Origin: a virus
Virus record (IMG/VR): IMGVR_UViG_3300044970_003275
Coordinates: 1 to 25,560 of that record
DNA length: 25,560 nucleotides
Strand: one strand, 5' to 3'
The notes below the pieces were generated by a model. That model was given only the letters and a program-made list of their open reading frames with translations. It had not been told where the DNA came from and did no database searches. This document shows, piece by piece, positions 7,282-25,388 of this stretch. How positions within the stretch are numbered: position 1 is the stretch's first letter; each line of letters opens with the position of its first letter. The translations under genes were made by a program, and so were the position numbers.

Positions 7282-7308
7282 GAACTATCCGATATTTCCG
7301 GACAGTTC
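7282..7308. terminator. Inverted repeat at the 3' end of the KilA-N gene
   Basis: GAACTATCCG (7282-7291) and CGGACAGTTC (7299-7308) pair at nine of ten positions around a 7-base AT-rich loop. The structure lies between the convergent ends of gpK and the KilA-N gene and includes part of the KilA-N stop codon. There is no clear T-tract, so a terminator role is an inference from its position. Confidence 0.3.
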
Positions 7309-8398
7309 AGAGGCGCTCGAACAGCCAGCTGGGCCGCCCTGGGGGGAGGGTGCTGCCGAGATCACCGCAGCCGATTTTGCCCTGGCCGATCAGCTGCCAG
7401 CCATCGCGGCTGGCGCCGATGCCGTGGTGGCGCGACCAATCGTTGATGCGGTGGGTGGTGATTCCCAGGATCCGGGCCAGCTCCGGGCCCGCAATCTGCT
7501 CACCTCGCCGGAACCGCCGAACCTGATCAGGCTCGAGCGGCCGCAGGTGCCGGCAGACCATGGTTTCGGGTGGCTGGGCCGCCTGCCAGGGATCGGGCCC
7601 CGGCAACGGCGCCGATGAACGGCGAAGGCGCCGGACCGGCAAATCCGCTGGGGTTGGGGTGGCCGGGGTTGCCGGCAGGGCAGCCACCGAACCAGCCGCC
7701 GAGAAATCTTCGGCAACTGGTAAGGCGGGCTTACAGGTTGGGGGGAGCACCAGCTGGGCATAGCGCTGCACCAACCAGCCCATGAAATGTGTGGCCAGGG
7801 GCCGGGCATAGCGCAGCGAGCGCGGCACCTCATGCGCCGCTCGGCCCTCGATGGCAGCATCCACCTCCTTGGCATAGGCCGCAACGATCTCGTTCCAGTC
7901 CGCAGGGGCGGTCACCGCCGAAAACCCAAAAGCCGTGGCGGATCCCCCCAGGGGGGTGGCTCCCGTGCCGGCCGCGGCGGCCCTGGCCCCTTGGGTCTGA
8001 GCCCCCTGGGCACCGGCATGCTGGGCCGCGGCGCCCTGGGCCTGGGCCTGCACCACCTCCAGAAACCAGCCATCCATCCAGACGGCAAAGGCGGGACTGA
8101 TCCACCGGGCCAAATCCACGGCCAACCTGGGGTGGATCCAGGTGCCCTGAAGCTCAGGCCGGCCGCCTTGGATCGACCGAATCAAGCCCCCAATTCCCGT
8201 GGCCGGAAATCCGGTAACGGCTGCAAGCGCAGCGATATACGACTGTGTTCGGTCGTTTGCCTGATAGTGATTCCAACGGCGTTGCCCGGCTTGGCACATG
8301 GCCGTGGCGTTCACGTACCCGTCAGCTGCACTGCGATGGATCTCCACACCGTTCCAGATGCGGCAATCCATCCCCAGGGGGAAAGCCAAGCTATTCAT
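7307..8398 (-). CDS. KilA-N domain protein on the opposite strand (moron)
   Basis: The 363-residue product begins with a KilA-N DNA-binding domain at about residues 14-112 (IWNGVEIHRSAADGYVNATAM, then RWNHYQAND, TWIHPRLAVDLARWISP, FAVWMDGWFLEV). This domain is common in proteins of large DNA viruses, phages and phage antirepressors. Next comes a low-complexity Ala/Gln/Gly linker (about 115-145), a middle region with a helical WNEIVAAYAKEVDAAI segment, a Pro/Ala-rich stretch and a C-terminal segment (GPELARILGITTHRINDWSRHHGI) that looks like a helix-turn-helix. The ATG at 8398 has GGGAG five bases upstream. The gene lies inside the late tail operon but is read against it, the usual arrangement for a moron expressed from its own promoter in the lysogen. 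A regulatory or superinfection-related function is inference. Confidence 0.88.
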   Translation of the reverse strand: MNSLAFPLGMDCRIWNGVEIHRSAADGYVNATAMCQAGQRRWNHYQANDRTQSYIAALAAVTGFPATGIGGLIRSIQGGRPELQGTWIHPRLAVDLARWISPAFAVWMDGWFLEVVQAQAQGAAAQHAGAQGAQTQGARAAAAGTGATPLGGSATAFGFSAVTAPADWNEIVAAYAKEVDAAIEGRAAHEVPRSLRYARPLATHFMGWLVQRYAQLVLPPTCKPALPVAEDFSAAGSVAALPATPATPTPADLPVRRLRRSSAPLPGPDPWQAAQPPETMVCRHLRPLEPDQVRRFRRGEQIAGPELARILGITTHRINDWSRHHGIGASRDGWQLIGQGKIGCGDLGSTLPPGRPSWLFERL

Positions 8399-15827: not shown

Positions 15828-16847
15828 TCAGATTACAATACGCCCGCCACGGCGTGATATAGCTAGCTTACCGCCATTTGCTGGATCGCCAGGGAACGCA
15901 AAGCGGGTGGAAATCATGGACGGTCCGTACCCAATCACCGTAGCCACCCCTGCAGCTGTGCCCGCAGCGCTGGTGGTCGACGCGCCCTGCCCCGATGCTG
16001 TGGCCACTCCAAAAGAAGCGCCGGCAACGGACAGAATCAGCGCCACCTGGGCCTGCACCGTGGCCGCGCCTGCCGCCGATCCAGCAGCAGCTGCAATGGC
16101 CGCGCCCTGCCCTGCTGCCGTGGCCAGGCCAGAGGCAGCCCCGGCAAAAGCCAGAATCATCGCGCCCTGGGCCTGCGCTGTGGCCAAACCGGCGGCCGAT
16201 CCTGCACCCGCAACAATTCCACCGCCCGACGGACTTTGGCCTGCCGCCGTGGCCGCGCCTGCCGCCGATCCAGTGGCGGCAGCGATGGCCGCGCCTAGCC
16301 CACTTGTTGTTGCCGTACCTGCCGAAAGCCCGGCAGCGGATGCGCTGGACTGGCCTTGCCCAGACACGGCAGCCGCACCGGTTGAAGCCCCGGCCCCGGC
16401 TGCCACCGAGCCTGCAACAGAGCCATCGCCGAGCACCGTTGCCGTGCTGGATGCCGTTCCAGTCGCAGCGGCAACGGCCTGGCCTTGCCCGGATGTTGTT
16501 GCGACACCTGCCGACAACCCTGAGGCGGATGCCACCGATCCGCCAATACCACTTGTCTCTGCAAAACCCGCGGCCGATCCAGTGGCGGCGGCGATGGCCT
16601 GGCCTTGCCCGAATGCTGTGGCACTACCTGCTGACGATCCGGTCGCAGATGCGAAAGACTCGCTCTGTGCCAGAGCGGTGGCAGTGCCCGCTGAAGAACC
16701 AGCAGCACTGATGATCCCGCCACCGCCCGAAACCACAGGCGACCAGATCGCAACCCTTCCGCCAAACCCCTTCTGGGCTGTCAGCGTGCCGGTCAGGGTT
16801 GAAACAAAAACCCGCCCGCCGTAGCCTTTCTGGGCTGCCAGCGTCAT
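15828..16847 (-). CDS. Ala/Gly-rich 20-residue repeat protein (fibre or adhesin candidate)
   Basis: The 339-residue product has a 40-residue head with two copies of QKGxGGRV, then about 13 tandem repeats with consensus SGQGxAIAAATGSAAGxATx (mostly 20 residues, two copies of 23), and a 35-residue tail ending RRGGRIVI. Residues 41-304 are almost entirely Ala, Gly, Ser and Thr with no charged clusters. Such regularity suggests a repeating solenoid or a packed polyglycine/polyproline-like bundle, as in glycine-rich phage adhesins, but the fold is inference. The ATG at 16847 overlaps the stop of the beta-helix tailspike by one base (TGATG), so the two proteins probably work together at the receptor-binding apparatus. 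The equally long open frame on the opposite strand is a composition artefact. Confidence 0.78.
   Translation of the reverse strand: MTLAAQKGYGGRVFVSTLTGTLTAQKGFGGRVAIWSPVVSGGGGIISAAGSSAGTATALAQSESFASATGSSAGSATAFGQGQAIAAATGSAAGFAETSGIGGSVASASGLSAGVATTSGQGQAVAAATGTASSTATVLGDGSVAGSVAAGAGASTGAAAVSGQGQSSASAAGLSAGTATTSGLGAAIAAATGSAAGAATAAGQSPSGGGIVAGAGSAAGLATAQAQGAMILAFAGAASGLATAAGQGAAIAAAAGSAAGAATVQAQVALILSVAGASFGVATASGQGASTTSAAGTAAGVATVIGYGPSMISTRFAFPGDPANGGKLAISRRGGRIVI
15936..16727 (-). repeat. Tandem 60-bp repeats encoding the Ala/Gly array
   Basis: About 13 imperfect units of 60 bp (two of 69 bp) encode the 20-residue repeats. The copies have diverged at the DNA level but keep the GQG...ATGSAAG...AT frame. 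Confidence 0.8.
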
Positions 16848-20438: not shown

Positions 20439-21545
20439 ATGCCTCCCAAGGACCCGTATCTCGCCCGAGTCAACCGGGCCCTCCGTGCACTCGGAGCCAG
20501 CGTGTCGATGGAGGTCACGCCGTCCGGCGGCCGGCTGCGGTTGCGGGGCACCCTGCCAATGGCAGATGGCACCTGGAAGCAACGCCGGATCGCCACCGCC
20601 TTTCCCTATCCAGCCGGGATTGACCAAGCCCGGGAGCTGGCCGAGCAGCTGGGCCAGGACATCGAGCTGCATCGCCGCGGCCTTCAGCCGTTCCCTTTTG
20701 ACCGCTGGGCCCAGGCTGGTGCCGGATCGAGCAACTGTGCTGCCCGGGAAAGCATCAGCGGGCATGAAGCGATTCGGCGGACCGAGATCTGGTGGCACGA
20801 GCGGCGCCAGCGTGGTCCGAAATCGGCGGTGAGCTGGGCGACGGCCTACGGGGGGCCGCTGCGGCCACTGCTGCAGCAGCAGGATGTGACGCTCAACATT
20901 CTGCGAGCCTTGGTGGCAAGCAAGCCTGTTGGTGGGTGCGCAAGGCGCAAGGCGGCATTGGCAGCGACGGCTGTGGCGCAGGCCCTGGCAATGGGGATGG
21001 AGGCTGTGCAAGAGCTGCGGGATCTCGGGAAGGGCTACAGCCCCTCGAAAGCGCGGCCGCGCAGCTTGCCCGATGACCAGGTGATCATCGATGCGATCGA
21101 TGGAATGCCCGCCAATTGGCAGTGGGTCGCCGGCATCTGCGCCACCTATGGCACCCGCCCCCACGAGGCCCTGCTGATGGCCTGTGTCGAACGCAATGGT
21201 CTGGCGGTGATCCGGGCGGGAAAAACTGGTGCTCGAAAGAGCCTGCCGCTGCCGAAGGCCTGGATCGAGCGATGGAACCTCCAGGAGCAACGGCTGCCGG
21301 CAATCAATTTCGAACGGGACAGCCGAACCGTGGGGGCGCAGCTGGCGGTGGCCTTTCGCCGGTTCCAAGTGCCGTTTCAGCCGTACGACCTTCGCCATGC
21401 CTGGGCCGTGCGGGCCATCTCCAACCCGCAGATCAGCCCATCTCTGGCAGCCAAGAGCCTGGGCCATTCCTTGATGGTCCACACCACGCTGTACCAGCGT
21501 TATTTCGACAATGACTCAATGGCATCACTTGTGGCGCAGATGTGA
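20439..21545 (+). CDS. int: Tyrosine recombinase, phage integrase
   Basis: The 368-residue product has the C-terminal catalytic layout of tyrosine recombinases: Arg240 in ATYGTRPHEALL, Arg319 in YDLRHAWAV, His343 in LGHSLMVHT and the nucleophile Tyr352 nine residues later (TTLYQRY). The usual first histidine of the H-x-x-R box is Tyr316 here, a change also seen in other phage integrases. The N-terminal part (residues 1-200) includes an arm-binding-like segment and a helical core-binding domain (NILRALVASKP ... AVAQALAMGME). The ATG at 20439 directly follows the repeat cluster. The gene is the only rightward one in the right half and ends overlapping the convergent Xis-like gene by 21 bases. 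Confidence 0.9.
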   Translation: MPPKDPYLARVNRALRALGASVSMEVTPSGGRLRLRGTLPMADGTWKQRRIATAFPYPAGIDQARELAEQLGQDIELHRRGLQPFPFDRWAQAGAGSSNCAARESISGHEAIRRTEIWWHERRQRGPKSAVSWATAYGGPLRPLLQQQDVTLNILRALVASKPVGGCARRKAALAATAVAQALAMGMEAVQELRDLGKGYSPSKARPRSLPDDQVIIDAIDGMPANWQWVAGICATYGTRPHEALLMACVERNGLAVIRAGKTGARKSLPLPKAWIERWNLQEQRLPAINFERDSRTVGAQLAVAFRRFQVPFQPYDLRHAWAVRAISNPQISPSLAAKSLGHSLMVHTTLYQRYFDNDSMASLVAQM

Positions 21546-23306: not shown

Positions 23307-23702
23307 CTAACCAAAACCTTCACCGACTGCCGGGGGAAGATCGGGTGTCGCAATCTCATCGCGGAGCTTTGCTCGCAGCAGCGCTTCCCATTGCTCGGGG
23401 TGCGCTGCAATCCACTCGCGGGCGGAATTGCAATGCTCGATTGGGGGCAGCCCTTGGCGCGATCGCCAGGCATTGGCTGCACAACGCGAGCATTGGGCTC
23501 CGGTGCCGGGTTGATGGCATAGATCAAGCTGCTCCAGGGTCCAGTACCCATCCAAAACACCCATAGCCGCTCGCTGGCCCCAGTTCGTAACGCCCCTCTC
23601 AAGCCGAGAGCGGGTAACCACTCCTTCTCCAACGGAGACTGCGAAGATGTCAATCGTGGCCGCTGAAGCGACCAGATCATCCATGGTCGTGGGTGATTCC
23701 AT
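23307..23702 (-). CDS. Hypothetical early protein with a cysteine cluster
   Basis: I choose the ATG at 23702, which overlaps the upstream stop (TGATG) and has GAGG four bases before it; a GTG three bases earlier would leave only one base between GAGG and the start. The 131-residue product has a compact N-terminal domain with SRLERGVTNWGQRAAMGVLDGYWTLEQL, followed by the cysteines DLCHQPGTGAQCSRCAANAW and a later HCNSAREWIAAHPEQWEALL helix. The arrangement C-x8-C-x2-C plus a later His-Cys could bind zinc, but I do not recognise a family. It lies in the leftward early block between an unknown gene and DUF2303. Confidence 0.65.
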   Translation of the reverse strand: MESPTTMDDLVASAATIDIFAVSVGEGVVTRSRLERGVTNWGQRAAMGVLDGYWTLEQLDLCHQPGTGAQCSRCAANAWRSRQGLPPIEHCNSAREWIAAHPEQWEALLRAKLRDEIATPDLPPAVGEGFG

Positions 23703-24208
23703 CACGCCTCAGCCAGCTGGGGTTCGGCGGCCGCGGCCATTGCAGGCTCAAGCGGATTGACCACGCCAGTAGCCGCGGCCAGGGCCAACAGGGACTCGAT
23801 GCGCTCGGCCCGGGTCTTCGGTGGCGGCTGGATCGCCTGGGCAGGAGGCAGGGCAAAAGCCCGGTGCTCCGCAGGCACCGGCTGTAGAGGGGTGAAAGTC
23901 CCCGCAGCGGCCAGCCGCTGGGGCAGATCACTCCGCAGCCCGCGACCCACACACGGGGAAATGCCCTGGCAGGGATAGAGATACCGAAGCAAGGCCATGT
24001 GCAAAGCCATGTCTGGCACGGGCTCAGGATCCAGCAACAGCTGTTGTGCCGCAAAAATCAAATGAGCCTTGTTCAGCTCTTGCCGTGCCTGCTGCGGAAA
24101 GGTCAAAAACGCAAACGTGTGATCATCGCCAGTGAGCTTCTTGGCAAAGCGCTGGAGGGACGAAAGGCTCTCCAGCACGTCAAACAGGTCATCGGAACTG
24201 ATCGTCAT
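23702..24208 (-). CDS. Hypothetical early protein downstream of the replication initiator
   Basis: The 168-residue product starts MTISSDDLFDVLESLSSLQRFAKKL, a mostly helical N-terminal part (through about residue 95, including HMALLRYLYPCQGISPCVGRG), followed by a Pro/Ala-rich tail. I recognise no family. A strong ribosome site (GGAGG) lies four bases before the ATG at 24208, inside the 3' end of the upstream gene, which it overlaps by 20 bases, so it is coupled to the replication gene. In lambda the gene after O is the helicase loader P, but nothing in this sequence shows an ATPase or loader motif, so I make no such assignment. Confidence 0.7.
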   Translation of the reverse strand: MTISSDDLFDVLESLSSLQRFAKKLTGDDHTFAFLTFPQQARQELNKAHLIFAAQQLLLDPEPVPDMALHMALLRYLYPCQGISPCVGRGLRSDLPQRLAAAGTFTPLQPVPAEHRAFALPPAQAIQPPPKTRAERIESLLALAAATGVVNPLEPAMAAAAEPQLAEA

Positions 24209-25388
24209 GGGCCCTCCGTACCTCGTGGTTGATCCCCCGATTCATCGCATCCCGCTTCTGCTGGCGCAGGTCGGAAGGGTCAAAATTCGGTTTGCCGGAT
24301 CGTAGCATCCTGGATTCTGTATGGGCGAGGGCAAGCGTAAAATCGCTTGTTGTCGCTGCCTCCGCCAAGCCTGCAATCACCCGGCGGTGTCCCTCGTGGC
24401 CCAGGGACTGCCAGCCGGCTTCGGCTGCCTGTTCGAGGTAGCCCTCCAGCACGCCGTGCTCAACCGCCAGGCGAATCGCGTTCAAGGTCCGGGTTCCCAA
24501 CTGCAGCCGATCGGCCCGGGGATGGACGCGGCAGCGGCGCTGCCACCAGGTCGCCAGCAGATCCAGCAGATCTGGCTCCAACTCCGGGGCATCGCCCGGC
24601 AAGGGGCAAGCCTGCGCCGAGCGGCTTTTGGCGGTGGCCGCGGCCTTCGGTTGGGCTTTGGGTTTGCTTGCCGCTGCAGCTGCGACAACGGGTTCGGCGG
24701 TGGTTGGCCTGGAGGCCGCGGCCACCGGTGCCGGGTCAACGGGAGTGTCCGGCGAGGTCGGTTCAACCGGATCGAGGCTGATCACCTCCGTCACCTCGAT
24801 CACGCTGGCGGGTTCGTCCCCCGGTGCGCGCAGCGCAGTGGGGGATACAGGGGGTTCTAAAGGCTGTTCTTCTTTCTTCTTGTTAAGTACTTCTTGTTTG
24901 TATCCCCCATTTGGGGGAGGGGTCCCCTCCCCCGGTTGGGGTAGGGGTACCTCACCCCTTTTGGGGTATCCCCCATTTGGGGGAACCCCCCGTCCGGGGG
25001 ATACCCCTTTCGGGGGAGTTCCCCTGCCAGGGGATGGGCCACTGTTTTGACGAGGCTCTTCCCCAGTGTTCATTAAGGTTTTGCCAGATAATGCCGGCTC
25101 CGAGCGCACATGGAAAACGGTCGTGAAACCAGGCCGTTGGACACTTGTGACCCAACCCCCGGCCTCAAGCCATCGATGGGCTTGACGCACGTCATCAGCC
25201 TTCATGCCGCATTCCACGCTCTGGGTTTCAATCGACGGGTAGGCCTTGTCGTCGGTGCCGGCATGATCCCAAAGCCATGCGTAGACGAACAAATGGTTCT
25301 TCCGGTCTCTGCAATCCCGCAGCAACTGCTTAGGGATAATGACAAAATCAGTACGCTTAAGGGTTGACTGATCTGGCTGTGATGGCAT
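24189..25388 (-). CDS. Replication-initiator-like protein with winged helix and repeat-encoded linker
   Basis: I place the start at the ATG at 25388 (399 residues). An earlier in-frame start at 25541 would read through a long terminator-like hairpin and encode an unconvincing leader. The N-terminal domain (residues about 12-100: TDFVIIPKQLL, HLFVYAWLWDHAG, AYPSIETQSVECGMKADDVR, LEAGGWVTSVQRPG) is a winged helix-turn-helix of the kind (HTH_36-like) found in phage and plasmid replication initiators. Residues about 119-162 are a Pro/Gly-rich linker encoded by a hairpin array (24904-25033). Residues 163-180 are Lys/Glu-rich (NKKKEEQPL) and correspond to an AT-rich tract. A Pro/Ala-rich segment follows, and a helical C-terminal domain from about 270 (LLDLLATWWQRRCRVHP ... 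AEAGWQSLGHEGHRRVIAGLAEA). The plan resembles lambda O. Confidence 0.72.
   Translation of the reverse strand: MPSQPDQSTLKRTDFVIIPKQLLRDCRDRKNHLFVYAWLWDHAGTDDKAYPSIETQSVECGMKADDVRQAHRWLEAGGWVTSVQRPGFTTVFHVRSEPALSGKTLMNTGEEPRQNSGPSPGRGTPPKGVSPGRGVPPNGGYPKRGEVPLPQPGEGTPPPNGGYKQEVLNKKKEEQPLEPPVSPTALRAPGDEPASVIEVTEVISLDPVEPTSPDTPVDPAPVAAASRPTTAEPVVAAAAASKPKAQPKAAATAKSRSAQACPLPGDAPELEPDLLDLLATWWQRRCRVHPRADRLQLGTRTLNAIRLAVEHGVLEGYLEQAAEAGWQSLGHEGHRRVIAGLAEAATTSDFTLALAHTESRMLRSGKPNFDPSDLRQQKRDAMNRGINHEVRRAHDDQFR
24855..25033 (-). other. ori: Candidate intragenic replication origin: hairpin iterons plus AT-rich tract
   Basis: Hairpins with C4-5/G4-5 stems and 4-5-base loops begin at 24904, 24930, 24955, 24970, 24987, 25004 and 25021, with an additional AGGGG-T-CCCCT at 24918-24928. 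The last four have an exact 17-bp period. TATCCCCCATTTGGGGGA occurs identically at 24901-24918 and 24967-24984. Bases 24855-24900 are about one third GC and strongly pyrimidine-biased on the plus strand, unlike the rest of the gene. Iterons followed by an AT-rich tract inside an initiator gene is the known organisation of the lambda origin. Function as an origin is inference. Confidence 0.5.

Follow-up and report, generated by a model that had tools for sequence, protein, structure and literature searches.

The window, as we call the whole stretch of 25,560 nucleotides analysed here, is a 25.56-kb contig and perhaps an incomplete piece of a phage genome. The replication-initiator-like gene noticed in a first-pass annotation lies on its minus strand, to which its location is here corrected. 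PHROG profiles recognise the 399-residue product as a replication initiator (phrog_270, 391 and 1032, E 1e-7 to 1e-5, with phrog_270 at 1e-7 and the O-like phrog_391 at 9e-6) and the Pfam family HTH_36 matched it at E 6e-5, just under the cut-off. Pfam PF04492 (Phage_rep_O) did not match the protein at E 1, whereas lambda O matches at 6e-36, and a profile comparison between the two proteins was non-significant. A PDB sequence search gave no match for the window protein and none for lambda O; in a PDB fold search with the window protein all matches were non-significant and mostly to winged-helix proteins. An AlphaFold2 model built on a 29-row alignment is fairly reliable in two parts, the winged helix (about residues 13-100) and a set of helices that starts at residue 272. 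The winged-helix part, where pLDDT is mostly 68-90 (residues 11-100), is modelled with helices at residues 20-25, 30-42, 53-60 and 64-77 and strands at 80-83 and 91-94. The linker between the two parts is predicted to be disordered (pLDDT below 50 for residues 102-259), and it is this linker that is encoded by the palindrome array and the A-rich tract, so that the gene runs from winged helix through array-bearing linker to C-terminal helical domain. The features are as follows.

24189-25388, minus strand: O-like replication initiator gene, ATG at 25388, named from its profile matches and housing the candidate origin
25089-25352, minus strand: N-terminal winged-helix domain, residues 13-100, presumed to bind the iterons (AlphaFold2, non-significant PDB fold matches)
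25158-25199, minus strand: putative recognition helix, residues 64-77 (AlphaFold2; the class B to C changes in relatives centre there)
24901-25320, minus strand: exchange cassette of winged helix plus array, about gene nt 69-488 (from window versus L007 identity)
25021-25033, minus strand: candidate iteron 1, CCCCTGGCAGGGG, distal
25004-25016, minus strand: candidate iteron 2, CCCCCGAAAGGGG
24987-25000, minus strand: candidate iteron 3, CCCCCGGACGGGGG
24970-24983, minus strand: candidate iteron 4, CCCCCAAATGGGGG
24954-24967, minus strand: candidate iteron 5, ACCCCAAAAGGGGT, first of three proximal units at 25-bp spacing
24929-24942, minus strand: candidate iteron 6, ACCCCAACCGGGGG
24904-24917, minus strand: candidate iteron 7, CCCCCAAATGGGGG, adjoining the A-rich tract and in register with lambda iteron 4
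24855-24900, minus strand: A-rich tract, presumed DNA-unwinding element, with AACAAGAAG repeated; also in L007, L110 and L124
24192-24611, minus strand: C-terminal helical domain, residues about 260-399 (AlphaFold2; common to homologues with differing iterons)
23702-24208, minus strand: downstream gene overlapping the end of the initiator gene, without a family match

The hairpin array that the first-pass annotation had described in this gene is real and can be defined as seven G/C palindromes at 24904-25033, with cores of 13-14 bp (16 bp with flanks) and centre-to-centre distances, in gene order, of 17, 16.5, 17, 16, 25 and 25 bp. Its GC content is 67.7% against 59.3% for the window, in which the unit is found nowhere else. 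The exact 18-bp repeat TATCCCCCATTTGGGGGA at 24901-24918 and 24967-24984 grows to 19 bp, as the preceding base matches too. The proposed 17-bp period is exact for the units at 24970, 24987, 25004 and 25021 (plus-strand positions) and covers only that part of the array, while the units do occupy all three codon phases, as had been claimed. The candidate sites thus stand in tandem between the DNA-binding and C-terminal domains, and the AT-rich tract adjoins the last of them, as in lambda. The GC content of this tract, given earlier as about 33%, was measured as 32.6%; its AT-richness alone is unremarkable, because 177 overlapping 46-mers of the window are equally AT-rich. Within it AACAAGAAG occurs twice at a distance of 14 nt (24890-24898 and 24876-24884), the first copy lying 12.5 nt away from the centre of the last palindrome, and the A-rich strand is the coding strand.

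The array was compared with two nulls that keep the protein fixed, synonymous re-coding by codon usage and permutation of the linker's own codons (5000 each). The eight palindromes counted are weakly unusual, since a Pro/Gly-rich linker forces runs of C and G: the null means are 4.4-5.7, and eight or more were reached in 67/5000 re-coded and 332/5000 permuted sequences. The repetition of entire units is clearly unusual, with the observed number of repeated 8-mers reached in 0/5000 and 4/5000 and an approximate-repeat score of 74, where the null reaches 49 at most. As the plain palindrome count is weak against synonymous nulls, our argument rests on repetition and on comparison with relatives, and the comparative part is the stronger of the two.

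Scans of viral contigs supplied five near relatives, relatives of cyanophage KBS-S-2A, and L110 and L124, which are remoter members of the window's group. By its replication gene the closest isolated relative is a virus of marine Synechococcus; two scans of bacterial genomes yielded no relatives and no host. An array lies at the equivalent position in all 46 winged-helix phage homologues. Its sequence, its number of units and the linker it encodes all vary; the expectation that hairpin number and 17-bp phasing would be conserved while the linker varies was therefore borne out for the place of the array and failed for unit number and phasing. The repeat score exceeds the codon-permuted nulls in nearly all of these homologues; in L029 and L030 it is not above the null maximum and the spacings are like those of the others. 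Automatic finding of palindrome centres was tried and rejected, as it placed spurious centres between units, and repeat lag was used instead. What is kept is the spacing next to the tract. With lambda included, 46 of 47 genes have 23-25 bp as the final spacing ahead of the A-rich tract, and in 45 both of the last two spacings fall in this range; these counts are non-independent since many of the genes are close relatives. The distal spacings range from 15 to 28 bp. The sole miss on the last spacing, L064, reflects a shift in tract detection (repeat analysis gives 23 and 24), and in L124 the last two spacings are 23 and then 18 bp.

The repeat sequences sort into nine classes. In a gene of class D (L058) the unit AGGTCGAAAACGACCT is translated as GRKRP, RSKTT and QVENDL, that is in all three frames, which agrees with the earlier proposal that the repeat is maintained at the DNA level and not as a protein repeat. 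The A-rich tandem behaves in the same way: it has a period of 13-15 nt with AACAAGAA and is independent of iteron class, by a tract pattern tuned on these same sequences. In L007, L110 and L124 the tract of the window is kept (AACAAGAAG, then AACAAGAA 13-14 nt on) and the iterons differ; AACAAGAACCC at 14 nt is translated as EQEP, KNKNP and RTRTQ. Judged from these translations, the A-rich tandem repeat is held at the DNA level. The tract lies 11.5-12.5 nt from the centre of the last palindrome, a distance that came out cleanly in some classes only.

Homologues L072-L104, which share the C-terminal domain and have a ribbon-helix-helix-like N-terminus, lack the intragenic array. Many of them have short repeats of about 10 or 20 bp just ahead of the initiator start codon, within about 100 nt of it, and the sequence of these repeats varies with the N-terminal type. 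In L131-L134, from the Pseudomonas phages phi2, LESphi3, MD8 and PotUPM1, the O-like genes likewise have repeated units in the linker with AGAACC-like repeats after them, as judged by eye.

Iteron class requires nine changes on the tree of the winged helix, where the minimum is eight, and 18 on the tree of the C-terminal domain. On these trees iteron type goes with the winged helix rather than with the C-terminal domain, as it should if the iterons are read by the N-terminal domain. The comparison of the window with L007 places the borders. Upstream through gene nt 68 the two are 97-100% identical, within the cassette they are 60-87% identical where aligned, with one 42-nt gap, and from nt 489 they are again mostly 97-100% identical, apart from nt 609-698, where identity drops to 87-90%. 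The border at the end of the array is sharp, and four other pairs are alike and less sharp. Over residues 10-95, KBS-S-2A and L026 (class C) differ at 11 amino acids, every one of them within residues 54-78, which by alignment cover the modelled recognition helix, and the synonymous differences are scattered over the whole domain; this stretch was picked after the differences were seen, so the Fisher values for it are descriptive. The comparisons indicate that winged helix and iterons, being side by side in one gene, are inherited and exchanged as a single specificity cassette, with the tract and the C-terminal domain constant.

The kind of origin that these features resemble is already well known from lambdoid phages. 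In lambda (NC_001416, where four iterons are annotated inside O) the origin also lies inside the initiator gene, and winged helix, iterons, AT tract and C-terminal domain follow in the order that the first-pass annotation had recognised here. Near-palindromic TCCCTCAAAACGAGGGA units, last spacings of 24 and 23 bp, an A-rich strand that is the coding strand, a repeat of about 15 nt in the tract and an overlap of O with P, like that of the window initiator with its downstream gene, are further likenesses. Unlike the window, lambda has four iterons of 18-19 bp with no distal units at 15-18 bp, an initiator that matches PF04492 and a recognised P gene after O. The units had earlier been described as unlike the iterons of lambda, which proved wrong: in an ungapped scan lambda iteron 4 with its AT tract found its best match in the window at 24870-24925, minus strand (30/56, about 5 sd above the mean). 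G003 and G004 have their best match at the corresponding position, and G005 has it elsewhere. Each lambda iteron is a near-perfect inverted repeat to which O binds as a dimer, and this binding opens the adjacent A+T-rich region (PMC5043065). According to work cited in PMC7466680, the two lambda iterons adjoining that region are enough in vitro, and the fixed proximal spacing of the present arrays is consistent with such a core.

Stx phages P27 and 933W also have an intragenic origin, in which additional distal iterons alter the length of the initiator protein (PMC7466680); their iterons are near-identical to those of lambda, whereas at least nine iteron sequences occur here. Cyanophage KBS-S-2A has the same anatomy in CPKG_00028 (HQ634187), annotated as a hypothetical protein, with TCCCCCAAAAGGTGG units at 24 bp and an A-rich tract, although its winged helix is only about 37% identical to that of the window. 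Iteron plasmids share the repeated initiator sites beside an AT-rich region, but theirs are mostly direct repeats that bind monomers (PMC5043065), whereas in most classes here, like those of lambda, the sites are palindromes. A replication origin is not a subject of the KBS2A genome announcement. An open-literature search on cyanophage origins with iterons, with most subscription journals outside its scope, brought up one unrelated paper; within that scope this group of cyanophage relatives appears to be undescribed, as do its many iteron specificities and the A-rich tandem of 13-15 nt.

Taken together, the segment is very probably a phage replication origin of the lambda type, placed inside its own initiator gene and opened by the gene product. 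In favour are the arrays in all winged-helix homologues and the absence of an intragenic array from homologues with another N-terminal domain, the fixed proximal spacing, the co-inheritance, the frame independence, the lambda match and the O-like profiles. The missing Phage_rep_O match, the non-significant profile comparison with lambda O, the mismatch in G005, the spacing in L124 and the lack of a recognised helicase loader speak against it. GC skew, proposed earlier as a check and run on G003, G004 and G005, showed no clear turning point at the gene. The intragenic origin that the first-pass annotation had suggested is thus supported by the homologues and by the co-inheritance of winged helix and iterons. 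The winged-helix domain would bind the palindromic units as iterons, the three units nearest to the tract, 23-25 bp apart, forming the core and the distal units at 15-18 bp contributing avidity. The assembled complex would then melt the neighbouring A-rich tract with its 13-15 nt repeats, and the C-terminal domain, by analogy with lambda, may recruit the helicase or a helicase loader.

The best of the other explanations, though improbable, is that the array is an operator through which the winged-helix protein autoregulates as a roadblock in its own gene, with the origin elsewhere. Co-inheritance would indicate that the protein reads the sites and not for what purpose; nevertheless an operator gives no account of the fixed 23-25 bp proximal spacing, of the class-independent A-rich repeats beside the last unit or of the lambda ori layout. 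The two roles could also exist side by side. It is very unlikely that the palindromes act as RNA or single-strand hairpins, for example in pausing transcription or ribosomes. The window array is far stabler than shuffled sequence (z -10.2), but in classes B and C, where array and spacing are retained, folding is no more stable (B, z -0.8) or little more stable (C, z -2.1) than that of shuffled sequence, which makes a hairpin doubtful as the conserved role, and iteron class tracks a DNA-binding domain. Less likely still is a Pro/Gly-rich protein repeat with palindromes as a codon by-product: such a linker does by itself give many C/G palindromes, as the null means indicate, but the spacings are not multiples of three, a single DNA unit is translated in three frames in relatives, the linker is predicted to be disordered and the repeat score exceeds the synonymous nulls. 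A dispersed REP or MITE-like element inserted into the gene would fit tandem G/C palindromes and can be practically discarded, since the unit is confined to the array within the window, CCCCN6GGGG outside the array is no commoner than its reversed control in related contigs, and each of the winged-helix homologues carries an array of its own at the equivalent place.

These comparisons extend the lambda type of origin to phages whose initiator gene is related to that of a Synechococcus virus. They also provide naturally occurring pairs of initiator and sites, some differing mainly in one helix, with which one can test directly how O-type initiators choose their sites and what the A-rich repeat does. 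As a tentative generalisation, to which we give somewhat less than an even chance, O-type initiators may combine a swappable specificity cassette (winged helix plus iterons, with at least nine specificities in this set and natural recognition-helix switches, as between classes B and C) with a constant module of three proximal sites at 23-25 bp and a 13-15 nt A-rich tandem, read by a conserved part of the initiator or by the helicase machinery.

No helicase loader was recognised downstream, where the overlapping gene has no family match. The small downstream proteins at 23307-23705 of the window and 3277-3492 of L032, from two initiator groups, share by eye a GYWTLExLDxPSPG-like motif. An integrase-like gene (phrog_1) at 20439-21545 on the plus strand suggests a temperate phage. 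On the minus strand, 7307-8398 encodes a KilA-N domain protein that weakly matches the BstA family of abortive-infection proteins, and 15828-16847 is an open frame for a repetitive Gly/Ala/Ser-rich protein.
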